Of a stretch of DNA of 35,090 bases, positions 6,190-27,282 are shown piece after piece. The number at the start of each line of letters is the position of its first letter. The stretch's first letter is position 1. The position numbers were made by a program, and so were the translations under genes. The stretch comes from Candidatus Bathyarchaeota archaeon (GTDB lineage Archaea; Thermoproteota; Bathyarchaeia; 40CM-2-53-6): contig VBBT01000120.1 of the NCBI GenBank assembly GCA_005881695.1, forward strand, positions 1 to 35,090. The letters are read 5' to 3'. A model generated the notes under the pieces. The model did not search any database, was not told where the DNA came from, and worked only from the letters and a program-made list of their open reading frames with translations.

Positions 6190-9100
6190 TTGTCGAAGGT
6201 CAACAATCCTGACAAGCCGTCAAGAAGCTGTCCCGGTCATATGCTCAAGGCAAAGACCTTCATTATCGCAATAATCCTCCTCAGCGGCCTGCTGAACCTC
6301 AATGTCCCAGCGCATCCTATCGGAACCGCAACTCCACCGCACAGCATTCACTTCGCGACCGCAGCCGATCCAAACAATCTAGGCATTAACTGCGCCTATG
6401 GCGCACTAGACGCCACCGGCTTGCCCATAACTACCGAGGATGGCGATGGGACCCTCAACACTTCTTGCCAGTGGGCGGGCGATGTGGACGGCGACACCGC
6501 TCCAGACCCTCTCGTCTCAGACAATCCCAGCACTGCGCTAGCGGGCTCTGGCGGCGGATTCACGGCTGACATCATAATCACGAGCCTCGACCCGAGCCTC
6601 CTCGGTATCAACGGTTTCGACCAGACCATTAGTTATGATACGCACGTTCTGAATGCTGTCCTCGTCGACCAGTCGGGTCTCACCTTCGGTGGAAACCTTG
6701 GATGCAACCCGGCAATCAACCCGTCGTGCACTGTTACCACTGCGCTCACGATCGACCGGGTCGGTGGTACTGTTCGTTTGGCTCAGGCTGTTCTCGGTAT
6801 TACCGTCGGCCCCGGCGGCTCTTGCTCTATCACAGCGAAACCTGACTGCACTTCCCCCACCCAGACGCTCTTCAGGATACGCTTCGATGTCGTGGGCGCG
6901 GGTACAGGATTCATCAAGTTCTCCACAGACCCGACGAAAAACGTTATCACATGTCCGTGCTCGGTTCCACACACAAGCCAGGACGGTGCTCTAGGCACTG
7001 ACACATTCTTCAGCGCGATCAACGGTGTCGTTGGGGGCACATTCGAGGTCAACTGGACTTTTAGTCCGAGCCCCGAGGTTCCAGGAAAGTCTCTAACCTT
7101 CTCCGCTCCCTCTGTCACCTGCACGTACTGCACTGGGACCCTAACGTACACCTGGGACTTCAGTAGCCTTGACTCACCGACATATGCGGCGAAAGTGGAC
7201 GCTACTGGAATGATGGCGACAGTTACGCCCCCTCCTCCAGTGATCCACCGAGTGACCCTGACTGTTACAGATGGAACTCACAAAGCGTCAGCCACTAGGC
7301 TTCTCCCCCTGGTCGTTACAGCAACAGGCCCCACGACCGTCGCCCAAGGAGCGCCGTCGACAGCGTTCAATGGGATCTGGCTAGGTGGTGTCGTCACCAG
7401 CACATCAGGCTATTCAGGACTGTGGCGCTTCTGTCCAGGCACCAACCTGAACAAGTTGGTCTGCAACACTCCGAGCTCCGCCGTCTCCCAGAGCGGTGCA
7501 TCCATAACTCAGACGAGCGCCGTCAGTTCAGTCATCTTCAACTTTGCAGGTCTCTACAACGACTTTCTCTCCTTATCCGACACAATTGTGTCGCAGATAT
7601 CTCCCACCGCCAACACCGGAGTTGCTCCTGTACCGGTCAACGTTACTGGTAGCACTCCGGCTTACACGGTAACAGTCAGCCCGAGCTTGACGACCATCAA
7701 TGCCGGGCAGAGTGTTGATTTTACTGTATCGGTAATTTACGCTGGCACCTACCCGCCAGGATTCAAGTCAACCAGCTTCAACTATTTCTTCGACTTTGGT
7801 GACGGGAGCACTAACACAGTTAGCAGCGGAACTTCAGTCACGTTTTCGCACACATTCAACCTCGGCGGCACCTTCATCGTCAGGGTTACACCACAAGAGA
7901 CCGGTAACGCGGCCCCAAACAAGATCCAAGAGAACGGCTACTCTTCAGTCATCACGGTAATTCCTCCGCTGGCTGCATCATTCACATTCTCGCCTCCGTT
8001 ACCTTCCGCAGGGCAGGAGATCACCTTCACCCCGACAGTCACCGGTGGGAATCCGCTGTACTCCTTCGCTTGGGATTTCGGCGACGGCTCAACATCCACC
8101 CTGCAGAGTCCAACCCACTCGTATGCGACAAGTGGTTCCTTCACGGTTGCACTGACGGTAACCGATTCCACAACCCCTACACCTCAGACCAGAAAAACTT
8201 CCCAGATGATTACCGTCTATCCGCCCGCTTTCGATTTTGGTGTTGTTTGGAGTCCGGCTAGTGCTTCTGTCACGGCTGGTGGTTCTAGTTCGCCTGATGT
8301 CGTGGCCACTTTGGTTTCTGGTACGTCGACTTCGGCTGCTTGTAGTGTGTCTCTTCCGTCGCCTGCGGTGGCGGGTTTGTCGGCTGTTCCGTTGACTTTC
8401 AGTCTGATGCCTAGTGCTGCTGGGGCCAGTCAGGCAGTGGCTATTGCGACCACTAGTGCTACTCCTGCTGGCACGTACACGATCAGCGTGAGCTGTGCTG
8501 GTGGTGGAGCCACTCGTGCTGCGAGCCCACAGCTCTCGCTAACCGTCACGGCACCAGCTTTCGATTACACTATTGCTTGGAGTCCCACAAGTGCTTCGAT
8601 CGCTGCTAGCGCTGGCACGACGCCCAGTATTGTTGCTACCTTGACATCAGGGACCACAACTGCAGTAACGTGCACTGTCAGTCTACCATCTCCAGCGGTC
8701 ACTGGTCTTTCTGCTTCCCCATTGAGCTTCAGCATTGCTCCCGCACTCGCTCCTGGTGCTTCTCAAGTTGTGACGATTTCTACAACTACGCTCACTCCTG
8801 CTGGCACATACACGATCGGTGTCAGCTGCACTGGCGGTGTTGGAACTCACACGGCCAACTTCTCGCTGATTGTTAGTGCTGCCGGCTTCGACTATACGGT
8901 CGCCTGGAGTCCTACAAGCGCTACCGTTGCTGCTGGCGCTAGCTCTACGCCGAATTTGGTTGCCATGTTGACGAGCGGCACTACTGCTTCAGTCACTTGT
9001 ACAGTGAGCCTTCCATCCCCAGCGGTTACAGGTCTTTCCGCATCTCCATTGACCTTCAGTATCACTCCAGCCGTTGCTCTTGGTGTTACTCAAGCAGTGA

Positions 9101-12100
9101 TGATCTCGACCACTGTCTTCACTCCTGGCGGCACGTACGCTATCAGCGTTAGCTGCACAGGCGGAGTTAGCAGTCACACTGCGAACTTCTCACTTAGTGT
9201 CACTGCTGCAGCCTTCGATTACACCGTAGCGTGGAGTCCAACCAGTAATACCATCACTGCGGGCGCGAGTACAACTCCTAACGTTGTTGCTACTTTGACC
9301 AGCGGTCAGGCCGCTTCGGTCACCTGCACCGTCACTCTTCCATCTCCCGCAGTCACTGGTCTATCTGCGAATCCACTTTCGTTCAGTATCACGCCTGCTC
9401 TCGCTTCCGGTACTTCACAAGCGGTAACGATCTCGACGACTACGCTTACTCCCACGGGCACTTACGCTATCGGCGTCAGCTGTACGGGTGGCGTCGGAAC
9501 TCATACTGCAAACTTCTCACTGACAGTCACTGCCGCGGGCTTCGACTATACAGTTGCCTTGAGTCCAACGAGCTCTAACATCGCTGCAGGCGCTAGTACT
9601 ACACCCAATGTGGTTGCCACGTTGACGAGCGGATCCACTTCTGCTGTTACGTGCACCGTCAGCCTTCCATCCCCGGCTGTGACCGGACTATCAGCCTCCC
9701 CGCTGTCGTTCAGTATTAGTCCAGTCGTTGCTCCCGGTGCTTCTCAGGCCGTAATGATCTCTACGACCGTGTTCACTCCGGGTGGAACGTACGCGATTAT
9801 TGTCAGTTGTACGGGTGGTGTTGGTGCTCATACCGCGAACTTCTCGCTGACTGTCACAGCTGCAGCTTTCGATTACACTGTTGCCTGGAGCCCAACCAGT
9901 AATACTGTCGCTGCTGGCTCCAGCACCACACCGAACATTGTCGCTACTCTGACAAGTGGTACCACCGCTTCAGTCACATGCACCATTAGTCTGCCGTCCC
10001 CGGCTGTAACAGGTCTATCCGCATCATCGCTCAGCTTCAGCATCACTCCAGCTCTTACTCCCAGCGCGATCAAGGCTGTGACGATTTCCACCACTAAGCT
10101 TACTCCTGCTGGCGTGTACATCATCGGTGTGAGTTGCACTGGCGGTGTTGGCACTCACACCGCGAACTTCTCGCTAACAGTTAGCGCCGCAGGTTTCGAC
10201 TATACGGTTGCTTGGAGTCCCACAAGTGCAACAATAGCCGCAGGTTCTGGCACCACACCGAATCTTGTTGGTATTTTGACGAGTGGTCAGACCGCGTCGG
10301 TCACGTGCACTGTTAGTCTTCCATCTCCGGCTGTAACGGGTCTCTCTGCTAGTCCACTTTCATTCAGCATTACCCCTGATCTCGCGCCGGGTGCTGCTCA
10401 AGCTGTAACGATCATGACAACAACACTCACTCCGGCTGGGACCTATACCATCGGTGTCAGTTGTACCGGTGGTGTGGGTACTCACACTGCCGACTTCTCG
10501 TTGACAGTCACTGCCGCGGGCTTCGACTATACGGTCGCTTGGAGTCCTACAAGCGCTACGACTGCTGATGGCGCTAGCACGATGCCTAACTTGGTTGCCA
10601 CGTTGACAAGCGGCACTGCTGCTTCAGTCACTTGCACAGTGAGCCTTCCATCTCCAGCGGTTACGGGATTATCTGCCTCCCCATTATCCTTCAGCATTAC
10701 ACCCGCACTCGCTCCTGGTGCTACACAGGTTGTAGCGATCTCGACCACCGTGTTCACACCGGGTGGAACCTATGCCATTAGCGTGAGCTGCACAGGTGGA
10801 GTCGGCACTCACACGGCCGACTTCCAGCTCACAGTCACAGCCGCAGCTTTCGATTTTGGTGTTGTTTGGAGTCCGGCTAGTGCTTCTGTCACGGCTGGTG
10901 GTTCTAGTTCGCCTGATGTCGTGGCCACTTTGGTTTCTGGTACGTCGACTTCGGCTGCTTGTAGTGTGTCTCTTCCGTCGCCTGCGGTGGCGGGTTTGTC
11001 GGCTGTTCCGTTGACTTTCAGTCTGATGCCTAGTGCTGCTGGGGCCAGTCAGGCAGTGGCTATTGCGACCACTAGTGCTACTCCTGCTGGCACGTACACG
11101 ATCAGCGTGAGCTGTGCTGGTGGTGGAGCCACTCGTGCTGCGAGCCCACAGTTCTCGCTAACCGTCACGGCACCAGTCGCCGTTCCCACCGTCACCGTGA
11201 ACAGTCCAACCCCCAACGCGGCCAACACAGGCGAGATAATCATGGTGACTTTCACTGTTACCAGCACTACAACGGTCACCGGCATAACAGTTGACTGGGG
11301 TGACGGAACAACACTCGACAGTCTTGCGGGAACGGCCACATCTGATCATCACATTTACACATCGACTGGAAATCTAAAATCACAGACTTTCACAATAACC
11401 GTTACAGCAACGAATACTGCTGGACCAGGATCCGGCACGACGATGGCGACGACTAATGATCGGCCTCCGACCGCGACTATCTCAAATGTCTCTCCGAACC
11501 CCGCGAACATTGGACAACTTGTCACAATTACCTTCGCCACCGCCGATCCTGATGGCACAGTCTCGTCCATAGCCGTCGACTGGGGTGACGGATTAGCAAT
11601 CGACAATCTCTCGGGCACTGCTACATCCGATACTCACATGTACGGTTCGGCCAACTCTTTCACCATTATGGTAACCGCCACAGACAACAGCGGTTCCACA
11701 GGATCCGCCACGGCAGGGGAAACTGTAACTTCTGTCACAGTAACCCATGTCCTGTTGACGTTCCAAGTGCAGGCTCCTCAGAGCCCCAGTAGAGGTCCAG
11801 GGAATCTCCAGGTCTTCGTCAACGGCCAACACGTCACAGACATCACTCTTGGACTGACCTTTACCAGCTTCGGGCCAATCGACATTACAACTTTCGTAAT
11901 ATCTGGAGGCCAGAACACTGTCACCTTCATCAACCCACAGACCAACCAATTCAATCTAGTCAAAAATGTCACCATAACACAAGGAGACACGATACTGCTT
12001 CGCGTCATCAAAACCCTGAAAGTTTCAGCTGGCGGCACACTCAACCTCACATTTTCACTCCCGGCTCTAGCAACGACTAGTATCACGGTTTCCAGCACCA

Positions 12101-12348
12101 GCCCGTTAGTGGGGCAGACCGTGACGTTCACAGCCAAGTTCACCGGTGGCACTGCACCCTTCAAGTGCTTCTTTCAGTTCGGAGACGATGAATCAGCAGT
12201 ATCTCGGGGAACTTCCGGTACCTGCAAAGCGACCCACGACTACGACAGCTCAGGAACCTTCACCGCCACCATCGTGATCAAGGGAACGAGCAAGAGCGAC
12301 CGAGTAGTCGCCCATCTCAGCGTAAACGTTCAGGAAGATGACGACTAG
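6190..12348 (+). CDS. Giant secreted surface protein: cohesin-like domain, PKD domains, nine tandem ~109-aa Ig-like repeats
   Basis: Cohesin-like N-terminus paralogous to 156-2768 and 12524-14707; PKD motifs; repeats beginning FD[YF]xVxWSPxSxx...; alternative ATG at 6241. Confidence 0.8.
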   Translation: MSKVNNPDKPSRSCPGHMLKAKTFIIAIILLSGLLNLNVPAHPIGTATPPHSIHFATAADPNNLGINCAYGALDATGLPITTEDGDGTLNTSCQWAGDVDGDTAPDPLVSDNPSTALAGSGGGFTADIIITSLDPSLLGINGFDQTISYDTHVLNAVLVDQSGLTFGGNLGCNPAINPSCTVTTALTIDRVGGTVRLAQAVLGITVGPGGSCSITAKPDCTSPTQTLFRIRFDVVGAGTGFIKFSTDPTKNVITCPCSVPHTSQDGALGTDTFFSAINGVVGGTFEVNWTFSPSPEVPGKSLTFSAPSVTCTYCTGTLTYTWDFSSLDSPTYAAKVDATGMMATVTPPPPVIHRVTLTVTDGTHKASATRLLPLVVTATGPTTVAQGAPSTAFNGIWLGGVVTSTSGYSGLWRFCPGTNLNKLVCNTPSSAVSQSGASITQTSAVSSVIFNFAGLYNDFLSLSDTIVSQISPTANTGVAPVPVNVTGSTPAYTVTVSPSLTTINAGQSVDFTVSVIYAGTYPPGFKSTSFNYFFDFGDGSTNTVSSGTSVTFSHTFNLGGTFIVRVTPQETGNAAPNKIQENGYSSVITVIPPLAASFTFSPPLPSAGQEITFTPTVTGGNPLYSFAWDFGDGSTSTLQSPTHSYATSGSFTVALTVTDSTTPTPQTRKTSQMITVYPPAFDFGVVWSPASASVTAGGSSSPDVVATLVSGTSTSAACSVSLPSPAVAGLSAVPLTFSLMPSAAGASQAVAIATTSATPAGTYTISVSCAGGGATRAASPQLSLTVTAPAFDYTIAWSPTSASIAASAGTTPSIVATLTSGTTTAVTCTVSLPSPAVTGLSASPLSFSIAPALAPGASQVVTISTTTLTPAGTYTIGVSCTGGVGTHTANFSLIVSAAGFDYTVAWSPTSATVAAGASSTPNLVAMLTSGTTASVTCTVSLPSPAVTGLSASPLTFSITPAVALGVTQAVMISTTVFTPGGTYAISVSCTGGVSSHTANFSLSVTAAAFDYTVAWSPTSNTITAGASTTPNVVATLTSGQAASVTCTVTLPSPAVTGLSANPLSFSITPALASGTSQAVTISTTTLTPTGTYAIGVSCTGGVGTHTANFSLTVTAAGFDYTVALSPTSSNIAAGASTTPNVVATLTSGSTSAVTCTVSLPSPAVTGLSASPLSFSISPVVAPGASQAVMISTTVFTPGGTYAIIVSCTGGVGAHTANFSLTVTAAAFDYTVAWSPTSNTVAAGSSTTPNIVATLTSGTTASVTCTISLPSPAVTGLSASSLSFSITPALTPSAIKAVTISTTKLTPAGVYIIGVSCTGGVGTHTANFSLTVSAAGFDYTVAWSPTSATIAAGSGTTPNLVGILTSGQTASVTCTVSLPSPAVTGLSASPLSFSITPDLAPGAAQAVTIMTTTLTPAGTYTIGVSCTGGVGTHTADFSLTVTAAGFDYTVAWSPTSATTADGASTMPNLVATLTSGTAASVTCTVSLPSPAVTGLSASPLSFSITPALAPGATQVVAISTTVFTPGGTYAISVSCTGGVGTHTADFQLTVTAAAFDFGVVWSPASASVTAGGSSSPDVVATLVSGTSTSAACSVSLPSPAVAGLSAVPLTFSLMPSAAGASQAVAIATTSATPAGTYTISVSCAGGGATRAASPQFSLTVTAPVAVPTVTVNSPTPNAANTGEIIMVTFTVTSTTTVTGITVDWGDGTTLDSLAGTATSDHHIYTSTGNLKSQTFTITVTATNTAGPGSGTTMATTNDRPPTATISNVSPNPANIGQLVTITFATADPDGTVSSIAVDWGDGLAIDNLSGTATSDTHMYGSANSFTIMVTATDNSGSTGSATAGETVTSVTVTHVLLTFQVQAPQSPSRGPGNLQVFVNGQHVTDITLGLTFTSFGPIDITTFVISGGQNTVTFINPQTNQFNLVKNVTITQGDTILLRVIKTLKVSAGGTLNLTFSLPALATTSITVSSTSPLVGQTVTFTAKFTGGTAPFKCFFQFGDDESAVSRGTSGTCKATHDYDSSGTFTATIVIKGTSKSDRVVAHLSVNVQEDDD
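8227..11176 (+). repeat. Nine in-frame tandem repeats of ~327-330 bp
   Basis: Repeat starts FDFGVVWSPAS / FDYTIAWSPTS / FDYTVAWSPTS (x7, one TVALSPTS) / FDFGVVWSPAS; first and last units nearly identical in DNA. Confidence 0.95.
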
Positions 12349-12523: not shown

Positions 12524-14707
12524 ATGACAAAGTTGCCTTTGCAATCTTCACTAGGAACCGGGCGCACCGCTCGGCGCCTCCTCTCTTGCCTAGTACTGTT
12601 CTGGATTCTTACAACAGCGGGACCCGTCGTTCACATTCTCGGCCTCGACCTGACATTGCTGCCCCGCGTACCACCAGTCTCCGCCGCCCCGAGCAATAAT
12701 ATCCTAGGCATTGACTGTGCTTATGGTGCCTCGGCCGATCCTCCTATTCCTTTCCCCGCTCCAATAACCACCAAGGACAGCGATGGGACCCTCGACAATA
12801 GCTGTCAGTGGGCGGGCGACGTGGACGGTGATGGTGCTCTAGATCCTCTCGTCTCGGACAATCCCAGTACCGGGCCAGCGGGCTCCGGCGGGGGGTTCAC
12901 CGCTGACATCATAATCACAAATCTTAACGTGAGCATCAACGCCTTTGATCAGACTATCGGCTACGATCCGCATGTTCTAGATGCCGTTCTCGTCGACCAG
13001 TCGGGTCTCACCTTCGGAGGTAACATTGGCTGCGGGAATAATCCACAATGCACCGTAACGACTGCGCTGACCATCGACCATATTCAAGGCCAGGTCAGAA
13101 TCGCTCAGGCACTTCTAGGCATTACCGTGGGTCCCGGCGGCAGTTGCGACACCGGGGTCAATCCCATCTGTACTGCCACCACTCAGACGCTTTTCAGGAT
13201 ACGCTTTGACGTCGTAGGCGCAGGCACCTCCTTCATCAACTTCTCCACCAACCCGACGAAAAATGTCATTATCGACCCTTCTACCGGGGTTGATATTCGT
13301 CACACAACTCAGAACGGTGCACTGAGTACCAATGCTCTCTTTGCTCTGATCAATGGAGTGCACTCTTTCACGAACGGTTACAATGCTTCCTGGACATTCT
13401 CGCCGAACCCAGAGGTCCCCGGCTCACCACTAACTTTCACGGCGACAGCAAGCTGCGGAAACTGCACTGGCGCGTTCACATATTCATGGGACTTTAGTAG
13501 CCAGGACTCTCCCACATATGTTCCAAAGATATCTACTTCGGGTGCTAGCGTAACAGTCACTGCTCCGCCCCCCATCATCAACCGCGTGACCCTGCTCGTT
13601 ACCGACTCGGCAACAACGCCTCACTTCGTAACCTCTACCAAGCGTCTTCCGCTCGCCGTCGCAGCAGCAGGTCCGACGACCGCGACCCAAGGAACCGCCT
13701 CCGCAGCGTTCAGTGCCCTCTGGCTGGGCGGCGTTGTCACCACGTCATCAGGCTATTCCGGATCTTGGCGGTTCTGTCCAGGCAGCCCTACCGTCAAGAC
13801 AGTATGCGACACCCCAATTTCCATAGTTTCGCAAAACCCTCCCGCGATAACCCAGACGAGCACAGTTAGTTCAGTCACCTACAATTTTGCAGGCGTCTAC
13901 AATGATCTTCTTTCGATATCTGACACTGCAGTATCCCAGATCTCTCCGAATCCCAACACCGTAACCGCACCAGTTGCCGTAAATGTCACTGGTACGACGC
14001 CGGCCTTTACAGTAGCTGTGAGTCCCTCCCCTAAGGCGCAGCTACAAGGACAATCGATCGGTTTTCCGATTACGGTGACCTATGCTTCAAGCTATCCTAC
14101 AGGCTTTCGAGCAAGTGGTTTCACCTACCAGGTTTTCTTCGGTGATGGAACGAGCGTTACTCAAACAGGGGGGTTAACGCTCTTGACGTTGACGCATATT
14201 TACAGCTCTACAGGTGTCTTCAATGTCAAAGTCATCGCCCAGGAAACAACCCCGAGTGCGAGTGTGCCTTCAAAGATCAAGGAAATAGGCACAGCCTCCG
14301 TAGATGTCGCGCAACAGTTGTTGACAGGAGACTTCAGCTTGAGTCCAGCTTCACCCACGCCAGGCCAATCCGCAACGTTCACCCCAGCAGCTTCTGGGGG
14401 TGCTGGTCCGTACACGTACTCATGGAGCTTCGGCGACGGTAACAACGGCACCGGGAGTTCCCCAGCACACACCTACTCTGCCGCAGGGACTTACAACGTA
14501 ACGCTGAAAATAACAGATTCCTTCGGAAGCACGTTCACCGTATCGCATACAGTGACCGTTGCTCCAGAGGGAGTATCTCTGCTCCTGATCGGCGGCGGAG
14601 TCGTGGCAGCACTGGCAGTCTTAGCCGGACTCTTGCTATTTCTAAGAAGGCGGAAGACGACGCCGAAAAAGGTGCTACTACCGCCGGGGTCGCCTACTCG
14701 GAGGTAG
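12524..14707 (+). CDS. Membrane-anchored cohesin-like + PKD surface protein
   Basis: Paralog of the 909- and 2052-aa proteins (QWAGDVDGDGALDPLVSDNPS, DQSGLTFGGN, TLFRIRFDVVGAGT); PKD YSWSFGDGNNG; C-terminal TM LLLIGGGVVAALAVLAGLLLFLRRRK; TATA 'ctatatta' ~30 nt upstream. Confidence 0.82.
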   Translation: MTKLPLQSSLGTGRTARRLLSCLVLFWILTTAGPVVHILGLDLTLLPRVPPVSAAPSNNILGIDCAYGASADPPIPFPAPITTKDSDGTLDNSCQWAGDVDGDGALDPLVSDNPSTGPAGSGGGFTADIIITNLNVSINAFDQTIGYDPHVLDAVLVDQSGLTFGGNIGCGNNPQCTVTTALTIDHIQGQVRIAQALLGITVGPGGSCDTGVNPICTATTQTLFRIRFDVVGAGTSFINFSTNPTKNVIIDPSTGVDIRHTTQNGALSTNALFALINGVHSFTNGYNASWTFSPNPEVPGSPLTFTATASCGNCTGAFTYSWDFSSQDSPTYVPKISTSGASVTVTAPPPIINRVTLLVTDSATTPHFVTSTKRLPLAVAAAGPTTATQGTASAAFSALWLGGVVTTSSGYSGSWRFCPGSPTVKTVCDTPISIVSQNPPAITQTSTVSSVTYNFAGVYNDLLSISDTAVSQISPNPNTVTAPVAVNVTGTTPAFTVAVSPSPKAQLQGQSIGFPITVTYASSYPTGFRASGFTYQVFFGDGTSVTQTGGLTLLTLTHIYSSTGVFNVKVIAQETTPSASVPSKIKEIGTASVDVAQQLLTGDFSLSPASPTPGQSATFTPAASGGAGPYTYSWSFGDGNNGTGSSPAHTYSAAGTYNVTLKITDSFGSTFTVSHTVTVAPEGVSLLLIGGGVVAALAVLAGLLLFLRRRKTTPKKVLLPPGSPTRR

Positions 14708-14819: not shown

Positions 14820-16181
14820 GTGAAGCCTCGATTTACAACGCTCTTCTTTATCCTACTAGCCATTTCTTCCATACTGATCATCACCATTCTCCCTATGGAT
14901 AATGTCAAAGGCCAACCGGTTCCTCCTGCCGTCGTAAGCGTGTTCAGCAACCTATACGGAACAAACAACATAACGGACACGTCTTTGGGGCCAGGAGCCG
15001 AGTTTACCATCGACATCAATATTGCAAACGCTCCAAACTTCAACGCCTACGAGACTGCCCTCTTCTACGACCCTACATACATCACAGTAGCGTCGTACGA
15101 TTATTCCACTGGAACTATATTTCCCAGTCCTTTTCAAGCTTCATACCATAACATAGCGGGCGCTGTTCGTCTCAGCGTAGCGAACTTCGGTGCAACAACC
15201 GTTTCGGGAAGTGGGACGCTGTTCCACGTCACGTTTAGCGTCAACGGATACGGTGCGAGCCCGCTGGTCCTGGCGGCAGCAGTCCCAGACCCCGCTCAGT
15301 CGGCTCAGGGTGCCGACGGCTATACCCCTAATTGGACTAGGCTAGTCGTCAGCACTTCTACATCGACGAATCCGGTGGAGACTAACGTGACGACTACTGA
15401 TGGTTATTTCAGGAACGTGATCGGCCCGACAAGGCTCCCGCCCGTCGCACTGTTCAATTGGTCCCCCACGAAAATTGCTGCGGGCCAGGAGGTAACGTTT
15501 AACGCAACCGCTAGCTTCGACGCTGACAACAGACCTGGAGTGCACCCCAGCCGGATTGCCACCTATAGGTGGGATTTTGGAGAAGGAGGTATCGGCTATA
15601 CAGGACCGCTTTTTCCGCACGCGTTTCGCTATCAGGGAAACTATACGGTTCTCCTAACTGTAGCAGACAATGACACAGGCTACACGGATATGAGGTCACA
15701 ACTGTTGACGGTCTCTCTGGCACCCTTCCATGCGATCGAGATCCACTCTGTCTCGCTGAATGGTTCTCCCCAGGCAATCTTGAATCCAGCTGACACACTG
15801 CACATTATCGTGACGGTACTGAACCCTGGGACGTTTGTGGAGTCTTTCAACCTGACCATCTCCTACGGCCCCCCGACCAAGCTGATCCCTCCACCATTCA
15901 CAAACCAGACCATTCTCCCCGGAGCCAGTCATCAAAAGATCTACAACGCAACTTTGCCCACTTCAGAGCTCGGCCTCGGAACATACGAGGTTGATGTCGC
16001 GTTGGTGGACCATCCGTTCAACAAACCACCAATGGACAGCGTGGTTAAGTCGCTCTTTACGATAATCGAACCTTCAAACGTTCCCTACATTCCCATAATC
16101 GGTGGCATCTCCGCCCTTATTGCAATCCCGGTTGCCGTGATTGTTCTAAGGCGAAGATTAAGAGCAGAAGAGATCGAGTGA
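14820..16181 (+). CDS. Membrane-anchored cohesin-like + PKD + CARDB-like surface protein
   Basis: Signal peptide; cohesin-like YETALFYDPTYITVASYDYSTG...GSGTLFHVTFSVNGYG; PKD YRWDFGEGG; CARDB-like HIIVTVLNPGTFVESFNLTISY; C-terminal TM + RRRLRAEE. Confidence 0.75.
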   Translation: MKPRFTTLFFILLAISSILIITILPMDNVKGQPVPPAVVSVFSNLYGTNNITDTSLGPGAEFTIDINIANAPNFNAYETALFYDPTYITVASYDYSTGTIFPSPFQASYHNIAGAVRLSVANFGATTVSGSGTLFHVTFSVNGYGASPLVLAAAVPDPAQSAQGADGYTPNWTRLVVSTSTSTNPVETNVTTTDGYFRNVIGPTRLPPVALFNWSPTKIAAGQEVTFNATASFDADNRPGVHPSRIATYRWDFGEGGIGYTGPLFPHAFRYQGNYTVLLTVADNDTGYTDMRSQLLTVSLAPFHAIEIHSVSLNGSPQAILNPADTLHIIVTVLNPGTFVESFNLTISYGPPTKLIPPPFTNQTILPGASHQKIYNATLPTSELGLGTYEVDVALVDHPFNKPPMDSVVKSLFTIIEPSNVPYIPIIGGISALIAIPVAVIVLRRRLRAEEIE

Positions 16182-16283: not shown

Positions 16284-19200
16284 ATGAGACTACAGACACC
16301 AGTGATAGTTCTAGTTCTAGCCATAACGATTTTGACAGCTCTACCAGGCGCATATATCAGATCGGTACACGCAGTGGACCAACTAGTTACCCCGACAGCA
16401 TGGTCGCCATTCGGACCCGCTACCGACACGTTGGTCATGCAGTTCTATTCAGACTTCTCCACGACCTTTCAGCATTTCCAGTCGGGAGAAATCGACGTCA
16501 CGGACTGGCCAGCTTTCAACACTAACATACAATGTACTACAACGAACGATCCCAACTGTTACCACACCTTCTCAGACTTCTTCCTAGGGACTCAGACGAC
16601 AGAGTACGGCATCTTCCAGCTTGACATCAACAGCCACCCCGCGCTTTTCGGTGTATCGCAGCTCACTGCGAGGGTCAAACCAGCGGTGAGCCTCGGCACA
16701 CCCACCAGCGGGACTGGATGTACACCGGGCTTCGGTTCAGTGACAGTCACACTTTTCAACACTGAAACCGGCGCAATCGTCACCCGAGACAGTGCCAGCC
16801 TCCCCAGTCTCAACAACATGACTATTTCCGGTCCGCAGACCTTCACCACAATGGACTCAGGGGCTAAGGCAAATGGCACGCCTAACGGCGTCTATGTCTT
16901 TCCCTGCGCATTACAGGGTAGCTACGTAGTCAGCAACAATGTCTTCGCCAACTGTCTGCCCTCAGCCCAGGCCACATGCACAGTCTCAATCGGAAGTAAC
17001 ACAGCAACAACAGTCCAGTTCAACTCTGCATGGAATAGCCCGAGCAACCAGCAGCCGACCGCTGCCGGAGTCGATGTCCGACGGGCGATCCTTCACCTCC
17101 TGAACCGACACCAGTTCACGGCAAGCCAGCCTGCTGGCAACATCATGGCCTGTGACGACGTATTCGCCCCTCCGAGCCAGAAGGTCGGAACAGGCTTTTG
17201 CAACCCCGCTGACGGGCAACCTTTGCCAAGCGACATACTGCAAGCAGACTGTGCGGCTCACGCCGCATGGCTCCCAGCTATAACATGCAACACAGACTAT
17301 GCGAACAGCCACGAGTCCTATCTGTTGAACGACACATCCCTCGGCCCATCGTCGTACTGGTGGGCTAAGCAAGGATCGGCGTTGCCCGCACCAGAGACCG
17401 CAGGATATCCAAGCATCACCGACCTCAGAGCCGCGTGCGACTATCTAATAATTCCAACCAGCGCTGGCGGACCAGGATTCTCGATAACTCCTTCTGGAGC
17501 GACATGCGTAGATGTGGTCCTTGCCGCTGAAGGCACACAGGCACAATTCCCGACCGGCAAGACAAACTACGCCCACCTAGTAACCAGCACACAGGTCGTC
17601 ACTTACATCAGAACCCACAACCCGAGGCGGGACTTCGGCCAGACGATTGCCGACGGTCTGAACTTCCTCTTCGGTACAGCGAACAACGGCGCCAACCTTG
17701 GTGCCGCCCCAACTAACGTACCGTGCGCCATCAACTACGGCTTCAAATCTCCCTCGCCAGGTTGCACAGCACAGTACTACACTATCGGCGATATCGCGTC
17801 AATAATCTTCGGTGACGGGTTCAAGCCTGATGGCTGGGGCCTATACACCGGAGGCTACAACCTCACACCGACCCCTGATCACCTATACGCGCTCGTTCAC
17901 AGCCAGTTCGCAAGCAATGTCTGCGGAGGCCCGGGAGCAGACTTCCCCAACAACTATCGATTCTTCTGCGACCCGCGCTACGACACGTACTCCGCGGCGG
18001 GTGAGTTCGCGATCAATGCCCAGAAGGGCTACGCAGGACTCTGGCAAGCAGCAGTGCAGGGCGTTCTTCAGGCCGCAGGCGCCCCTGTCTTTAGCCGCTA
18101 CGAACAGTTCGTAGCACTAAAGTCGTGGGATTGGCAATCGAACGCTCCTCAACACTCCAGTCTTGCCAACGGCAGAGGCACAGGCTTCGAAGCTGGCTCC
18201 CAAGGCGGGCTCATCTCGTTGCTGAACATGCGATGCAACCCAACAGCAAACGCAGCTGCAGGGACAGCATACAAATGCGGCGGAGGAACATCAGGACTCC
18301 TAAGGAGATCTGAATCCCAAGACACCGACAACCTGAACCCGTTCCAGGCTACTACAGTCTGGGACTTTGACCCGATCCTCGAGATCTGGGACACTATGCT
18401 TCAGCTCAACCCCAACGTAGGACCTGTTGATTCTGTCACCGGACAGGTTACCGAACAATTCGTTGACTGGATGACTAACAGTCATACGCAGAGCTTCAAC
18501 CCAACCGAGGTCTGTACGGCACTTGCGACCGGAATATCGACGGTAGGCTGCACGACCCAGATCTGGCACTTGAGGCCTGACCTCAAGTTCCACGATGGGA
18601 CACCAGTAACCGCAGCCGACATCGTGTTCAGTCTAAAGGCCGCGGACCTTGTTCCTTCAGCCATCTTTGCGCCAAGTGTCGCGAACATGCAGGACGCCAT
18701 AGCCCTCGACTCCAGTACCGTCCAGGTGAAACTGATCCTCCAGAGTCCCTTCTATGAAGGGAACATTGGAGGAGTTCCCATACTACCCGTTAGTAGGTGG
18801 GGACCCCTGTGCACGGGCACAGACGGCAAGCTCGGCGGTGTTGGAAACAGATGCGGAGACATTACCTTCGACCCCATGGCAGCGGGTGACATGATCGGCA
18901 GCGGACCATTCATTTGCAAGAACATCACCACAGGCGTCGTTGGCGGTACATGTAGCCGGAATGCTGATGGAAGTGCCGGCACCATGGTCGTCAGCTTCGG
19001 CGGCTCGATAACACTCAACAGGAACCGCAACTACATGCGATGCTGTGCGGACGTTCCGAACACAAGTCTCCACAAGCTCAGCTGGGCGGACAGGAACAAC
19101 GATGGAATCGTAAACATTCTCGACGTAGCTGACATTGCATTCCACTTCGGACAGGCCGACACCTACTGGAACACAGGCCAGAGCTCGCTGGCTCCCAACG

Positions 19201-19352
19201 TGGGAACGGATCCCGCTGTCGTTGACATCGGAGAAGTTGCCACGGTAGCATTCTATTTCGGAGCCGGAGTACAAACACCGTTTACACCATCTCAGGTCAA
19301 CGCGCTAGATCCGCAGATAGACCCGTACTTCTGTCCAATCGCCGGCTGCTAA
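16284..19352 (+). CDS. ABC-type peptide/nickel family (SBP_bac_5) extracellular substrate-binding protein, apparently circularly permuted, with C-terminal dockerin-like module
   Basis: SBP5 motifs: FQSGEIDVTDWPA, IFQLDINSHPALFG, GVDVRRAILHLLNRHQF, then LNPFQATTVWDFDPILEIWDTML, WHLRPDLKFHDGTPVTAADIVFSLKAADLV, MIGSGPFICK; dockerin ADRNNDGIVNILDVADIAFHFG; upstream of Dpp permease/ATPase genes. Confidence 0.85.
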   Translation: MRLQTPVIVLVLAITILTALPGAYIRSVHAVDQLVTPTAWSPFGPATDTLVMQFYSDFSTTFQHFQSGEIDVTDWPAFNTNIQCTTTNDPNCYHTFSDFFLGTQTTEYGIFQLDINSHPALFGVSQLTARVKPAVSLGTPTSGTGCTPGFGSVTVTLFNTETGAIVTRDSASLPSLNNMTISGPQTFTTMDSGAKANGTPNGVYVFPCALQGSYVVSNNVFANCLPSAQATCTVSIGSNTATTVQFNSAWNSPSNQQPTAAGVDVRRAILHLLNRHQFTASQPAGNIMACDDVFAPPSQKVGTGFCNPADGQPLPSDILQADCAAHAAWLPAITCNTDYANSHESYLLNDTSLGPSSYWWAKQGSALPAPETAGYPSITDLRAACDYLIIPTSAGGPGFSITPSGATCVDVVLAAEGTQAQFPTGKTNYAHLVTSTQVVTYIRTHNPRRDFGQTIADGLNFLFGTANNGANLGAAPTNVPCAINYGFKSPSPGCTAQYYTIGDIASIIFGDGFKPDGWGLYTGGYNLTPTPDHLYALVHSQFASNVCGGPGADFPNNYRFFCDPRYDTYSAAGEFAINAQKGYAGLWQAAVQGVLQAAGAPVFSRYEQFVALKSWDWQSNAPQHSSLANGRGTGFEAGSQGGLISLLNMRCNPTANAAAGTAYKCGGGTSGLLRRSESQDTDNLNPFQATTVWDFDPILEIWDTMLQLNPNVGPVDSVTGQVTEQFVDWMTNSHTQSFNPTEVCTALATGISTVGCTTQIWHLRPDLKFHDGTPVTAADIVFSLKAADLVPSAIFAPSVANMQDAIALDSSTVQVKLILQSPFYEGNIGGVPILPVSRWGPLCTGTDGKLGGVGNRCGDITFDPMAAGDMIGSGPFICKNITTGVVGGTCSRNADGSAGTMVVSFGGSITLNRNRNYMRCCADVPNTSLHKLSWADRNNDGIVNILDVADIAFHFGQADTYWNTGQSSLAPNVGTDPAVVDIGEVATVAFYFGAGVQTPFTPSQVNALDPQIDPYFCPIAGC
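19079..19290 (+). other. Dockerin-like module of the substrate-binding protein (first Ca2+ loop intact, second degenerate)
   Basis: DRNNDGIVNILD + VADIAFHFG; second half VGTDPAVVDIGEVATVAFYFG. Confidence 0.75.
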
Positions 19353-19661: not shown

Positions 19662-20693
19662 ATGGGGCTTCGTGGTTACCTTCTGAAGCGCGCGTTCAAC
19701 ACGTTCATATTAATCCTATTTGTTATAACGCTCAACTTTGCAATTTTTCAGTTAATACCCGGGACTCAGGGAGTAATTGCAAATCTTCTCCAGAATCCTA
19801 GGTTGACGGACAAGAGCATAATTGGCAGGTACGAGAATCAGTTTGGTCTCTGTGCATCTTACGATCCTGCCACGCAGCACTGTGTGCTCGCCACAGCCTC
19901 TCAGCGTTTCGGAAAGTACTTTGTCAACATGCTAACTTTCAACTTCGGCGTTTCGTATCAGTCCGGTCATCCAATTCTCGACGACATGATTGGAACTGGG
20001 CGATTATACAACACCCTCCTCTTACTGGGAGTCTCCACTCTGTTCTCACTGTTGATCGGAATATTCATAGGGGTTTTTGTAGCCTCGAGAAGGGGCACTG
20101 CATTCGACACCGGCTGGGTCACCACATCCCTCGTCACATACTCGCTGCCGACGTTCTGGATGGGGCTAATATTCATACTGGTGTTCGCTCAAGACCTTCA
20201 CTGGTTTCCCCCAGGCGGGGTCACTCCGTTTCCCACCGGGGCACCATTACCTCCTTTCCTCCAGCAGATTCCTACAAGGATAGCGCATCTCTTTCTCCCG
20301 GCCCTTGTGTTGACGCTCTATTTTTACGGCGGGCATCTCCTTCTAACCAGAGCAACGATGCTAGAATCCCTGAGCGAAGACTACATTACAACGGCAAGAG
20401 CGAAAGGATTGTCGAATACTAAGGTGCTTTTCAAGCACGCGCTGAAGAACGCGTCCCTCCCCATCGTCACCAATGCCGCCCTTTCCTTCGGAGGCCTTTT
20501 GGGTGGAGCTATCATAACCGAGACCGTCTTCAACTGGGACGGCCTTGGCCACTGGATCTTCAGCGCGATAAGCTACAAGGACTTCCCTGTCATGCAAGCC
20601 ATGTTCTATATCATCGCTCTATGCGTGATCGTTGCCAACTTCATCTCCGACATTTTCCTGGGAGTAATTGACCCTAGGATAAAATACGAGTGA
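19662..20693 (+). CDS. dppB: Dipeptide/oligopeptide ABC transporter permease, DppB/OppB type
   Basis: LLKRAFNTFILILFVITLNFAIFQLIPG; EAA-type motif LSEDYITTARAKGLSNTKVLFKHALKNASLPIVT. Confidence 0.9.
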   Translation: MGLRGYLLKRAFNTFILILFVITLNFAIFQLIPGTQGVIANLLQNPRLTDKSIIGRYENQFGLCASYDPATQHCVLATASQRFGKYFVNMLTFNFGVSYQSGHPILDDMIGTGRLYNTLLLLGVSTLFSLLIGIFIGVFVASRRGTAFDTGWVTTSLVTYSLPTFWMGLIFILVFAQDLHWFPPGGVTPFPTGAPLPPFLQQIPTRIAHLFLPALVLTLYFYGGHLLLTRATMLESLSEDYITTARAKGLSNTKVLFKHALKNASLPIVTNAALSFGGLLGGAIITETVFNWDGLGHWIFSAISYKDFPVMQAMFYIIALCVIVANFISDIFLGVIDPRIKYE

Positions 20694-20703
20694 AAATTTT
20701 CCG

Positions 20704-22119
20704 TTGACTCTGCAAAAGCGAGTGCCGTTTAGGCTTATTAGACTAAAGAATTTTTTCCTTATCCTGGTGAAGAACCGACTGGCGTTTGCCGGCTTAATTC
20801 TTCTCCTTCTCTTCGTTTTTGCAGCAGCTGCAGCCCCCCTGTTAACAAGCAACTACCCGACTGAGAAGGCGGGCGGAAAATTAGCTCCACCATTCTGGGT
20901 ATCTTACATCTACGGCAACGCGAGATATAGTCAGAACGCCCAGTTTGGCTCACTAACCACCTACACTAACACGTCAAGCCTTGGTGTCAGCGTGCAATCC
21001 ACCTCGCTGGGACCCAATGACGTTAACGTCACTGTCCGCTCGGTCGCGGGTGGAACGGTCATCGTTGGAAAAACTCTAGACTATTCATATAGTGCGCCAC
21101 CCTCCGAGATGTTCGGAACCCTCGTCGTAACCCCCTCCTCCTTAAGTCTCGGATCCTCGCAACCACAGGTCGCCGTTTTCTTTGATAGGATTGGCGTCCG
21201 CGAATGGGGGCCTCTCTGGAATGACACGCTAAAACCGGGACTGACATCCCAGACAACAATTCGTTCCACCGACCCAGGCCTGGCCGCGCGGCTCGGCTAC
21301 CAGTCAGGAACGGACCTTGGCCAAATCGTCTTCTCGGCGAAGGGAGCATACCGGTACTTTGTGATGATAAATCTCCCGCCAGGTCAGTTTCAGGCCAGTT
21401 TCCTGATAAAACAGTTCTCCATGAGCTTGTACGGAAACACATATGGGCTGATGGGAACCGACTTTACCGGAGCTGACATATTCAGCCAGTTCGTATACGG
21501 AACCCAGCTCTCTTTGATGGTGGGGCTTATCGCCACGATCATTGGGATCGGGGTCGGATTGATCATTGGGCTTCTGGCCGGGTTTCTCGGAAAGATGGTT
21601 GACGAGGTCTTGATGCGTTTCACTGACATGATGTTGGTCATCCCCAGTCTCCCCTTGCTGATAGTCCTCGCTTCGGTCTTGGGCTCATCGCTCTGGAACA
21701 TCATCCTAATCCTCGGTTTCCTAGGCTGGATGGGTTTTGCCCGCCTGGTCAGGTCCCAGGTTCTTAGTCTGAGGGAGAGACCGTTCATAGAAGCGGCCAA
21801 GGCGTCAGGAGCGGGGACGAGCTACATCCTGGCACGCCACATCTTTCCCAACATAGTCGGGTTAACCTACGTGAACTTGGCACTTTCTGTTCCCGCGGCG
21901 ATAGTGGGAGAAGCTGCGCTAAGCTTCCTTGGACTCGGAGACCAGACAGCTATTACATGGGGAAAGATGCTGGAGTCCGCACGCGAGTCCTTCACCGGCC
22001 TCGCTTGGTGGTGGATCATCCCTCCCGGGCTTGGAATAGCAATGTTATCGCTCTCGTTTATCCTGATCGGCTACTCTCTCGACGAGCTTTTCAACCCGAG
22101 GCTCAGAAGACGCCGGTAG
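20704..22119 (+). CDS. dppC: Dipeptide/oligopeptide ABC transporter permease, DppC/OppC type with ~190-aa extracytoplasmic insertion
   Basis: TTG start; GTDFTGADIFSQFVYGTQLSLMVGL, FIEAAKASGAGTSYILARHIFPNIVG, GEAALSFLGLGDQTAITWGKML; 471 aa, much longer than ordinary DppC. Confidence 0.9.
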   Translation: MTLQKRVPFRLIRLKNFFLILVKNRLAFAGLILLLLFVFAAAAAPLLTSNYPTEKAGGKLAPPFWVSYIYGNARYSQNAQFGSLTTYTNTSSLGVSVQSTSLGPNDVNVTVRSVAGGTVIVGKTLDYSYSAPPSEMFGTLVVTPSSLSLGSSQPQVAVFFDRIGVREWGPLWNDTLKPGLTSQTTIRSTDPGLAARLGYQSGTDLGQIVFSAKGAYRYFVMINLPPGQFQASFLIKQFSMSLYGNTYGLMGTDFTGADIFSQFVYGTQLSLMVGLIATIIGIGVGLIIGLLAGFLGKMVDEVLMRFTDMMLVIPSLPLLIVLASVLGSSLWNIILILGFLGWMGFARLVRSQVLSLRERPFIEAAKASGAGTSYILARHIFPNIVGLTYVNLALSVPAAIVGEAALSFLGLGDQTAITWGKMLESARESFTGLAWWWIIPPGLGIAMLSLSFILIGYSLDELFNPRLRRRR

Positions 22120-22156: not shown

Positions 22157-23182
22157 GTGAAGCCACCTCCCAAGACTTATCAGATAGCAGACGATACCCA
22201 CCGAAGTAATAGCGAGAAAAATACTATGCCAGTGCTCAGCGTCGAAGGACTGACAACAAACTACCGAACACTTAGAGGCTGGGTCAAAGCTGCTGAAAAC
22301 GTCAACTTCGACGTTGAGAAAGGACAGGCAGTCGGTGTTGTAGGCGAGTCCGGATGCGGTAAGACCACAGTCGCCCTTTCGATCCTCAAGCTTCTACCTA
22401 GAGGGGGAAAGATTCGACGGGGAAAGATCATTTTTGACGGGACGGATATAGTCCCCTTAAGCGACAAGGAGATGAGAGCAATACGCTGGAAGGGCATCTC
22501 AATAGTTTTCCAGGGTGCAATGAATGCGCTCAATCCCGTCTTCAAAGTTGGTGACCAGATCATAGAAGCGATCAAGACCCATGAACCAGATCTCCCAAAG
22601 TCGGACGCTAGAGCGCGGGCCGAGGGCCTTCTTGAGATGGTGGGCGTCGAACCGTCGCGCATCAACAACTACCCCCATGAGTTCAGCGGCGGGATGAGGC
22701 AGAGAGCCCTCATCGCAATGGCCTTGGCGTCGAACCCGAAGCTTCTCATCGCAGACGAGCCAGGAACTGCGCTAGACGTCATCGTTCAAGCCCAGGTTCT
22801 TCAATTGATGCGGGGTCTTAAGGAGAAACTTGGGCTTTCGATGATGATGATCAGTCATGATCTCTCGATAGTTGCTGAGGTCTGCGAAAAAGTCGTCATC
22901 ATGTATGCGGGTCATGTGGTTGAATATGGAGAGATAGGAGAGATTTTCAAGGAGCCACTGCATCCGTACACGCAGGGGCTTATGGGAGCATTTCCCAGCA
23001 TCAAGGGCAACAAGCAGAAACTCGTCTCTATTCCAGGACAGCCACCCGACCTCCTTAATCCTCCACCAGGATGCCCTTTCTACCCGCGCTGCCCCTATGC
23101 CATGGATGTCTGCAAGACAAAGTTCCCTGAATCGAAGAAGATGGGGTCAGCTGAACACTACGTGTCCTGCTACCTGTATTGA
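22157..23182 (+). CDS. dppD: Dipeptide/oligopeptide ABC transporter ATP-binding protein, DppD/OppD (probable start ATG at 22226)
   Basis: Walker A GESGCGKTT, signature FSGGMRQR, Walker B LLIADEPGTALDV, C-terminal oligo_HPY CPFYPRCPYA. Confidence 0.92.
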   Translation: MKPPPKTYQIADDTHRSNSEKNTMPVLSVEGLTTNYRTLRGWVKAAENVNFDVEKGQAVGVVGESGCGKTTVALSILKLLPRGGKIRRGKIIFDGTDIVPLSDKEMRAIRWKGISIVFQGAMNALNPVFKVGDQIIEAIKTHEPDLPKSDARARAEGLLEMVGVEPSRINNYPHEFSGGMRQRALIAMALASNPKLLIADEPGTALDVIVQAQVLQLMRGLKEKLGLSMMMISHDLSIVAEVCEKVVIMYAGHVVEYGEIGEIFKEPLHPYTQGLMGAFPSIKGNKQKLVSIPGQPPDLLNPPPGCPFYPRCPYAMDVCKTKFPESKKMGSAEHYVSCYLY

Positions 23183-23204: not shown

Positions 23205-24212
23205 TTGGAAGATAGCATGATAGTATCGGCGCAAGGATTAAAGAAATACTTCCCGATAAAACGAGGATTCTTCACAACCCTATTTTCAGCATCTGACCTA
23301 TTTGTGAAGGCCGTAGACGGAATAGATTTCTACGTGAAAAAAGGCGAGATCTTCGGCCTTGTTGGAGAGAGTGGAAGTGGCAAGACCACAACTGGCCGGT
23401 TATTACTTAGGCTTCAGAGCCCGACCCAGGGCAAGATACTGTACAAGGGCCAAGATATCACCAATCTATCGCCCAAAGAGATGAAGCCGCTTCGGCGAAA
23501 GATGCAGATTATCTTTCAGGACCCGTTTGAGTCACTGGACCCACGGATGACGATAAAGGACATAGTAGCCGAACCGCTGCGGATCCAGAGGGTCACCAGC
23601 GGTGAGGGGGAGTTGGAGGAGAGAGTCAAACAGATTCTGCGAGATGTTGAACTCTTGCCCCCGGAAGAGTTCATGCTAAGGTTTCCCCACGAGATGAGCG
23701 GAGGGCAGAGGCAGAGGGTAGCGGTGGCCCGCGCTTTCGTCTTGGACCCTGATTTCGTTGTGGCAGATGAGCCTGTCTCCATGCTGGATGTCTCCATTAG
23801 AGCAGAGATTCTCAACCTGATGATCAGCCTCGTCCAGAAGAGGGGTGCTTCCTTCCTTTACATCACCCACGACCTTGCCCTTGCCAGGCACATGTGCGAC
23901 CGGATCGCGGTGATGTATCTCGGACGGATCGTAGAGCTGGGCGACGTTGACGCCATCATAAAGATGCCTTTGCATCCGTACACTAAAGCCCTCATCGCGG
24001 CAGTTCCGGTTCCAGACCCGTCCTCGAAGAGGATTGGAGAGGTGATCAGCGGAGAGATTCCAAGCCCCATCTTTCCACCCCCTGGTTGCCACTTTCACAC
24101 TCGATGCCCATACGTCCATACGAGGTGCACCCTCGAAGATCCACCCCTCATCGAGGTTGAGCCGAATCACTGGGTAGCATGCCATCTGGTCGGCAAGTCT
24201 CTCAACAGCTAA
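23205..24212 (+). CDS. dppF: Dipeptide/oligopeptide ABC transporter ATP-binding protein, DppF/OppF
   Basis: Walker A GESGSGKTT, signature MSGGQRQR, Walker B FVVADEPVSMLDVS, oligo_HPY CHFHTRCPYV. Confidence 0.92.
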   Translation: MEDSMIVSAQGLKKYFPIKRGFFTTLFSASDLFVKAVDGIDFYVKKGEIFGLVGESGSGKTTTGRLLLRLQSPTQGKILYKGQDITNLSPKEMKPLRRKMQIIFQDPFESLDPRMTIKDIVAEPLRIQRVTSGEGELEERVKQILRDVELLPPEEFMLRFPHEMSGGQRQRVAVARAFVLDPDFVVADEPVSMLDVSIRAEILNLMISLVQKRGASFLYITHDLALARHMCDRIAVMYLGRIVELGDVDAIIKMPLHPYTKALIAAVPVPDPSSKRIGEVISGEIPSPIFPPPGCHFHTRCPYVHTRCTLEDPPLIEVEPNHWVACHLVGKSLNS

Positions 24213-26355: not shown

Positions 26356-27282
26356 CTAGCGTGGCGATACTCTGAAGGTTATGTCGGCAGAGTGGGATAT
26401 GAGGCCGCTCGTCGCTGTTACAGTAACAGTGAATTCTACCGGAGGTGTTGTTGGGAATGTAACTATTAACAGTAGCATGAGCGTCGAAGTCCCAGGCTCA
26501 AGAAACACCTTTGCAGAGGTGAGGAAGAAGGCGACAGGGCCCGACTTCCGCAGGGGAGAAACAGATATTGAGAGACTCAACCCTCCGAAGAACCCTTCCT
26601 TGCTCTCAAGACTGACAGAGCCCAGCCGGTCTGAGTTCTTCTGGAGCGTAGGACAGCAGAACGCGGAGGAGATGCCGAAGTCTCCGGGTAGGCCTGTGCT
26701 TCCCTGCACAGTCTCAGGAACGATGTTTGCCCCGTTGACAACAGTGACACAAAAGTCAGGAGAGACGCTTGTCATGGAGCAGCCAGTCTGGAAGTCCACT
26801 TCCACTGCCGATGAACTCTGGGTGGCGTTGTAGGTGATGCTAAAAAGTCGCCCTGTTGTTGGGGCCGGTGTGCTGAAGCCCAGGGCAACCGCGGCAACTT
26901 CCACCGCGCCGATACCGTTCGCCCCCGAGCAACCAAACCCCTTGAAGTCAATACATTCTGCAATTGGTAGAATGTTTGAACCTAGCACGCTCCCACCTAG
27001 ATCCACGCTCGAACCACGCAGGACCTTCGGGTCTCCTTTTACAAGGATGTCAAACCCGTTCAACCGATCTGAGCGCTGGATGTTCACTGCTACTGTCAGT
27101 TGAGTCCCGTTCAGGGCAGAGATGGCTAGAGGTGTAGGAGGACAGTCTGCGGATTGGGGACCTGCGAGACACACCAAACCGATGCTCTGTCCATAAACCT
27201 CTAATTGGGAAAGTGGGCCGAGTCCGGAGAAGGCTATGATGACAAGGATTGTAACAAGCATAGGGCTCCCGATGAACCTCAT
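26356..27282 (-). CDS. Secreted cohesin-like domain protein with C-terminal Ig-like region
   Basis: Signal peptide; LTVAVNIQRSDRLNGFDILVKGDPKVLRGSSVDLGG...GAVEVAAVALGF...GRLFSITYNA; C-terminal TVTATSGLISHSADITFRV resembles the Ig repeats of the 2052-aa protein. Confidence 0.65.
   Translation of the reverse strand: MRFIGSPMLVTILVIIAFSGLGPLSQLEVYGQSIGLVCLAGPQSADCPPTPLAISALNGTQLTVAVNIQRSDRLNGFDILVKGDPKVLRGSSVDLGGSVLGSNILPIAECIDFKGFGCSGANGIGAVEVAAVALGFSTPAPTTGRLFSITYNATQSSSAVEVDFQTGCSMTSVSPDFCVTVVNGANIVPETVQGSTGLPGDFGISSAFCCPTLQKNSDRLGSVSLESKEGFFGGLSLSISVSPLRKSGPVAFFLTSAKVFLEPGTSTLMLLLIVTFPTTPPVEFTVTVTATSGLISHSADITFRVSPR

Follow-up and report, generated by a model that had tools for sequence, protein, structure and literature searches.

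Receptors comparable to the bathyarchaeal protein

Solute-binding proteins (SBPs) of family 5 (SBP_bac_5, cluster C), among them DppA, OppA, AppA and NikA, belong to the most abundant nutrient receptors of prokaryotes. Among SBPs of ABC transporters, TpMglB-2 (Tp0684), a member of the "Type Ic / Cluster Bc" clade of tethered receptors, has been described as naturally permuted, and its authors also raised tethering as a possible explanation (PMC4990184). Dockerin-bearing SBPs of the NikA/OppA type have been reported for ANME archaea (PMC9012536). For permuted SBPs of family 5 (cluster C) we found no report in the open-access literature searched, which excluded subscription papers and is not proof of novelty.

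The protein studied here is encoded at 16284..19352 on the forward strand of the window, i.e. the complete stretch of 35,090 nucleotides of contig VBBT01000120.1 that was analyzed. It consists of 1022 amino acids, originates from a soil archaeon assigned to Candidatus Bathyarchaeota and is a permuted family-5 SBP with a dockerin-like tail. By profile it belongs to the same family as DppA, OppA, AppA and NikA, and its gene resides before dppBCDF; it differs from cluster C SBPs by a chain order rotated at about profile position 188, by an insertion and by a dockerin-like tail that replaces the anchor. Permuted SBP5 proteins sharing its cut near 188 are termed class A in the following. The window protein is not a cluster Bc protein, as SBP_bac_5 is its sole Pfam match and the structural matches listed for a class A relative belong to family 5 (cluster C). 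TpMglB-2 features a cluster B sugar-binding fold, an unrelated cut point and a single class, whereas several cuts are found in family 5. The ANME proteins resemble the window protein in combining an SBP with a dockerin in a cohesin-containing archaeon; permutation is not mentioned in the relevant passages of that study.

Chain order and domain composition

An initial annotation, made from the sequence alone, had proposed that the order of the two lobes is reversed in this protein. Its open reading frame, strand and coordinates all held, and all six motifs it quoted were found in the order it gave, with GEIDVTDWPA (residues 68-77), IFQLDINSHPALFG (110-123) and GVDVRRAILHLLNRHQF (262-278) in the first part of the chain and NPFQATTVWDFDPILEIWDTML (685-706), WHLRPDLKFHDGTPVTAADIVFS (761-783) and MIGSGPFICK (870-879) in the last. 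Absent from it were the insertion (about residues 124-261) and the dockerin-like C-terminal module (about 932-993).

The chain begins with a signal peptide or N-terminal hydrophobic segment (16284..16373, approximately residues 1-30), as judged from the hydropathy of residues 1-28 with the cleavage site untested. It is followed by the old C-terminal part of SBP5, now first (16410..18233, approximately residues 43-650), which opens with the strand preceding SGEID, closes with "..GLISLLNMR" at the old C-terminus and is matched in hhalign by pieces 44-113, 242-288 and 499-586 of the family profile. The insertion (16653..17066) lies within this part, between the "fNxxxpP" and "vRqAi" motifs; it is conserved across the window family according to the family alignment, is of unknown type and has no Pfam match. 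No SBP5 aligns well to the middle of the protein (about residues 280-500). A linker defined by the family alignment (18234..18275, approximately residues 651-664) leads from the old C-terminus to the old N-terminus, and the hhalign alignment of the window family with class A runs through it. The old N-terminal part, now last (18276..19037, approximately residues 665-918), extends from "GGGTSGLLRR..LNPF" to "LNRNRNYM". The SBP portion ends with "..ITLNRNRNYM" (918), a strand that in ordinary SBP5 proteins directly precedes the point at which the window chain starts (about residue 43). The cut resides between the "..RNRNYM" strand and the next strand, "LVMQFYSDF..SGEID".

Profile evidence for a circular permutation

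With 61.4 bits (E=1.1e-16) the whole window protein matches SBP_bac_5 (PF00496) well above the Pfam gathering cut-off of 32.4 bits, and it does so in two stretches. Residues 757-884 correspond to positions 17-129 of the Pfam model, and residues 43-80 (approximately) to positions 144-182 when the N-terminal part is scanned alone (E=0.0026). Later model positions precede earlier ones, which is independent evidence of the reversed order from a curated model.

A profile of the window family (14 members, 38-67% identity to the window protein) was compared globally, using hhalign, with a 498-position normal-order profile that represents 13 archaeal SBP5 proteins. Among 35 rotations tried, the best alignment was obtained at rotation 188 (score 141.4, E=5.8e-26, 482 columns), with scores dropping to either side and a score of 88.5 for the unrotated comparison. 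Fifteen column-shuffled controls reached a maximum of 9.3, which places the result above chance. At rotation 188 the whole SBP5 fold is covered once, in ring order; the canonical N-to-C order of the SBP_bac_5 fold is not met. A class A profile derived from 41 proteins matches the window protein with 153 bits (E=7.1e-48) over residues 8-117 and 518-883, the latter stretch spanning the old C-to-N junction. Likewise, hhalign of the window family against class A gives one alignment across this junction (window residues 525-928, E=1.1e-19). The permuted order and its breakpoint are thereby shown. A sequential full-length alignment in normal order would have refuted the permutation; it was looked for and none was obtained. 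The claim of a circular permutation has thus held, on the grounds of profile rotation, the class A model described below and the clade-wide order.

Predicted structure

The AlphaFold2 model of the window protein, computed with 14 homologs, was unusable (pLDDT 47). A class A relative of 613 amino acids from the same taxonomic order (L077), which shares the cut, was modelled with a pLDDT of 90.5 and a pTM of 0.84. Two incomplete separate domains, a further outcome that would have spoken against a permutation, are not what is seen in this relative, which instead forms one confident structure; the window protein itself remains unmodelled. In Foldseek searches against the PDB the class A model retrieved the family-5 SBPs AppA, DppA, NikZ and NikA. 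The best matches are sequential alignments of only about 290-330 columns with a TM-score of about 0.5 and an rmsd of mostly 2-4 Å. A partial alignment of some 300 columns is what would be predicted for a permuted whole fold under a sequential aligner; this rests on the model, and no permutation-aware alignment is available. It is likely that the window protein represents a complete, circularly permuted family-5 fold, with the evidence for its own fold resting on the profile comparison with class A.

Distribution of class A

Homologs with the same order were searched for, as the initial annotation had suggested, and the order proved to be that of a clade-wide family. The motif order of the window protein recurs in five further genomes (G014, G011, G018, G012 and G005), and the window family has its named relatives in metagenome-assembled genomes (MAGs) of Candidatus Bathyarchaeota and in one MAG labelled only "bacterium". 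Continuous class A matches extend through numerous families of both the window's class and its phylum, the best match outside the class having E=8e-154. Class A forms one clade, with an SH-aLRT support of 99, in a quick, unrooted tree computed from 87 de-permuted cores. No homologs of the window protein were found among viral contigs, and a search of a viral structure library gave no match.

Eight proteins of 865-895 amino acids (L091-L097 and L099) have a class A-like start, with profile positions of about 190-485 coming first, and a second part that is barely recognizable. They possibly constitute a further diverged branch of class A.

Gene neighborhood and dockerin-like tail

The window SBP gene is directly followed by dppBCDF on the same strand: genes for a DppB-like permease (19662..20693; BPD_transp_1, E=3.3e-43), a DppC-like permease (20704..22119; BPD_transp_1, E=3.1e-30, and OppC_N), a DppD-like ATPase (22157..23182; ABC_tran and oligo_HPY) and a DppF-like ATPase (23205..24212; ABC_tran and oligo_HPY). 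In G014, G005 and G012 (contig C13), as in the window, dppB-C or dppBCDF genes come directly after the SBP gene; in G018 they are located close by. Since the gene precedes dppBCDF, a peptide receptor is the simplest reading; the operon is shown, while the peptide ligand and its delivery to DppBC are inferred without ligand data. In another contig of G012 (C25), four window-family SBP genes are arranged in tandem (L031), without dpp genes in the stretch read.

Upstream, also on the forward strand, reside a gene for a cohesin and PKD protein with a C-terminal transmembrane anchor (14820..16181; Pfam Cohesin, E=3.5e-7; E=2.6e-8 in a genome search with PF00963) and a gene for a PKD protein with a C-terminal membrane anchor, whose N-terminal region is cohesin-like by eye only (12524..14707). 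The order cohesin-TM, SBP, dppB is repeated in sister genomes. A PKD-repeat protein of 2052 amino acids is encoded further upstream of the cohesin genes (6190-12348). Additional members of a cohesin/dockerin surface set are found at 2845-4479, 4606-6033 and 26356-27282, comprising one BNR-repeat protein with a dockerin over the Pfam cut-off and two weak cohesin matches below it.

The dockerin-like module itself (19077..19262, residues 932-993) contains a canonical first calcium loop, D936-N938-D940-G941-N944-D947, that is invariant in the family. The second dockerin repeat is degenerate and lacks the first calcium ligands. With 13.2 bits (E=0.11) the match to Dockerin_1 (PF00404) stays below the Pfam cut-off of 22.9. 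Most class A relatives carry a membrane anchor where the window family has this tail: in the sampled set, 21 of 30 C-termini are transmembrane anchors and four are dockerin-like. The tail is not confined to the window's family: the class A proteins L204, L207, L209 and L210, which belong to other families within the class, likewise end in dockerin-like repeats. Family f1 and genome G025 yielded cohesin and dockerin genes, and the sampled families f2-f5 of the order yielded none. The presence of the dockerin-like and cohesin genes is shown; docking is inferred, without docking data.

Other cut points in family 5

Using a doubled profile, two further cuts were detected. Class B (cut at about 235) is present in four genomes, all of the window's genus; a further candidate (L084) was rejected as it is a class A protein truncated by a contig end. 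Class C (cut at about 330) occurs in Bathyarchaeia, haloarchaea and Alphaproteobacteria. A class C protein from a Nitratireductor plasmid, used as tblastn query, yielded single-piece matches in haloarchaea and Alphaproteobacteria, and all nine plasmid proteins from these groups checked with the doubled HMM (L234 and L236-L243) were of class C; proteins from Meiothermus and Azospirillum were the normal-order controls. These plasmid class C genes are carried on complete, circular records of cultured organisms, adjoin ABC permease or ATPase genes wherever flanks are annotated and are annotated merely as "ABC transporter substrate-binding protein". Class C members from culturable organisms include WP_238532955.1 of Halalkalicoccus jeotgali and WP_113156578.1 of Nitratireductor.

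The history of these cuts was assessed on the quick, unrooted tree described above for class A. In it, class C2 and B proteins cluster tightly within a normal-order clade, and given its starred branches class C needs at least three changes. A single origin of all cut C proteins as one clade was rejected by the AU test (p 0.0004), as was a clade of C1 and C2 (p 2.6e-65). The test did not reject C1 together with haloarchaeal and proteobacterial plasmid C proteins (p 0.25), nor A, C1 and plasmid C combined (p 0.13), and we therefore claim no higher count of origins. As C2/B arose apart from C1, it can safely be stated, within the limits of such a tree and the AU tests, that cut C has been used at least twice and that one further shift separates B from C2. 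An older permuted ancestor common to A and C1 is possible, being neither supported nor excluded.

Two sister species of the window's genus, G007 with class B and G015 with class C2, contain a dpp operon at the same syntenic site, with receptor loci L219 (8836-10614) and L221 (8491-10230), one of cut B and one of cut C2. The SBPs match in swapped order, residues 145-592 of B to 47-463 of C (E=7e-159) and residues 48-145 of B to 471-561 of C (E=1e-24). Upstream neighbors are 91-99% identical, ATPases 81-89%, permeases 66-69% and the SBPs 54%. The flanks have diverged less than receptor and permeases, and exchange for a divergent allele is for this reason just as likely as a re-permutation in situ.

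Proposed function, origin and alternative explanations

The best explanation for the window gene is that it encodes a permuted peptide receptor of the adjacent DppBCDF importer that is tethered via a dockerin, which we consider likely (probability of about 0.8), with ligand, docking and delivery inferred. The chain would start at the strand before the "LxxGEID" helix, traverse lobe II to the old C-terminus, cross the linker (residues 651-664, approximately) into the old N-terminus and end at "..LNRNRNYM" close to its own start. As in DppA/OppA, the two lobes would close upon peptide binding. A dockerin-cohesin contact, instead of an anchor of its own, would keep the receptor at the membrane, the cohesin encoded at 14820..16181 being the proposed partner.

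The permutation would have been inherited from an old class A lineage distributed over the class and the phylum beyond it. As its origin, the initial annotation had given tandem duplication plus terminal loss. The array of four permuted genes in G012 (C25) makes an origin by duplication plausible, but it is only inferred: the permutation predates this gene by far, and a fused N-C-N-C intermediate did not turn up. Four long open reading frames considered as such intermediates (L228, L229, L102 and L103) were rejected, none having a second SBP copy. The class A event is too old for traces of it in the window.

It is conceivable, albeit unlikely, that the permuted SBP5 has given up uptake for a role as a cell-surface adhesin or scaffold component and that dppBCDF use other SBPs. 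The large insertion, the dockerin-like tail, the secreted PKD, BNR-repeat and cohesin proteins in the neighborhood and the four-SBP array without dpp genes in the stretch read would fit this view. However, a dpp block follows the gene in the window, G014, G005 and G012 (C13) and is near it in G018, and dockerin-bearing SBPs of NikA/OppA type are on record for ANME archaea (PMC9012536).

The existence of tandem arrays such as L031 could also point at a fusion or misassembly, in which the C-terminal half of one SBP was joined to the N-terminal half of the next. This is all but excluded by the occurrence of the same order in numerous independent genomes, where every such protein has a signal peptide of its own and a single reading frame, by the 99 support for class A as one clade and the single confident folded unit of a class A protein, and by class C on complete, circular plasmids of cultured organisms. 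Finally, the window family might comprise two partial domains, dimerising in trans for example, with class A proteins as the true permuted monomers. The lack of a model for the window protein, its long insertion and its poorly matching middle leave some room for this reading; yet each SBP5 part is covered once and in ring order, as is also the case for the class A relative with the confident model, rendering it very unlikely.

A bolder reading, on which we remain tentative since we would place the odds against it, is that family-5 SBPs have undergone recurrent permutation, confined to a small number of preferred loops and with independent reuse of cut C; that selection favors permutation because the tethered end, be it a TM anchor or a dockerin, is thereby shifted to a different face or lobe of the receptor; and that one differently permuted receptor can then take the place of another at one operon, as in the two sister species of the window's genus.

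Implications for family-5 receptors

Profiles, annotation and structure searches assume one chain order, and permuted members are consequently recorded as partial or low-scoring. If permutation is recurrent, proteins of the same fold and transporter type with different termini provide natural comparisons for studying the influence of chain ends, tethers and lobe motion on uptake, and the natural cut points would be pre-tested sites useful in biosensor design. Natural permutants are available in uncultured archaea as well as in culturable organisms, e.g. Halalkalicoccus and Ketogulonicigenium.
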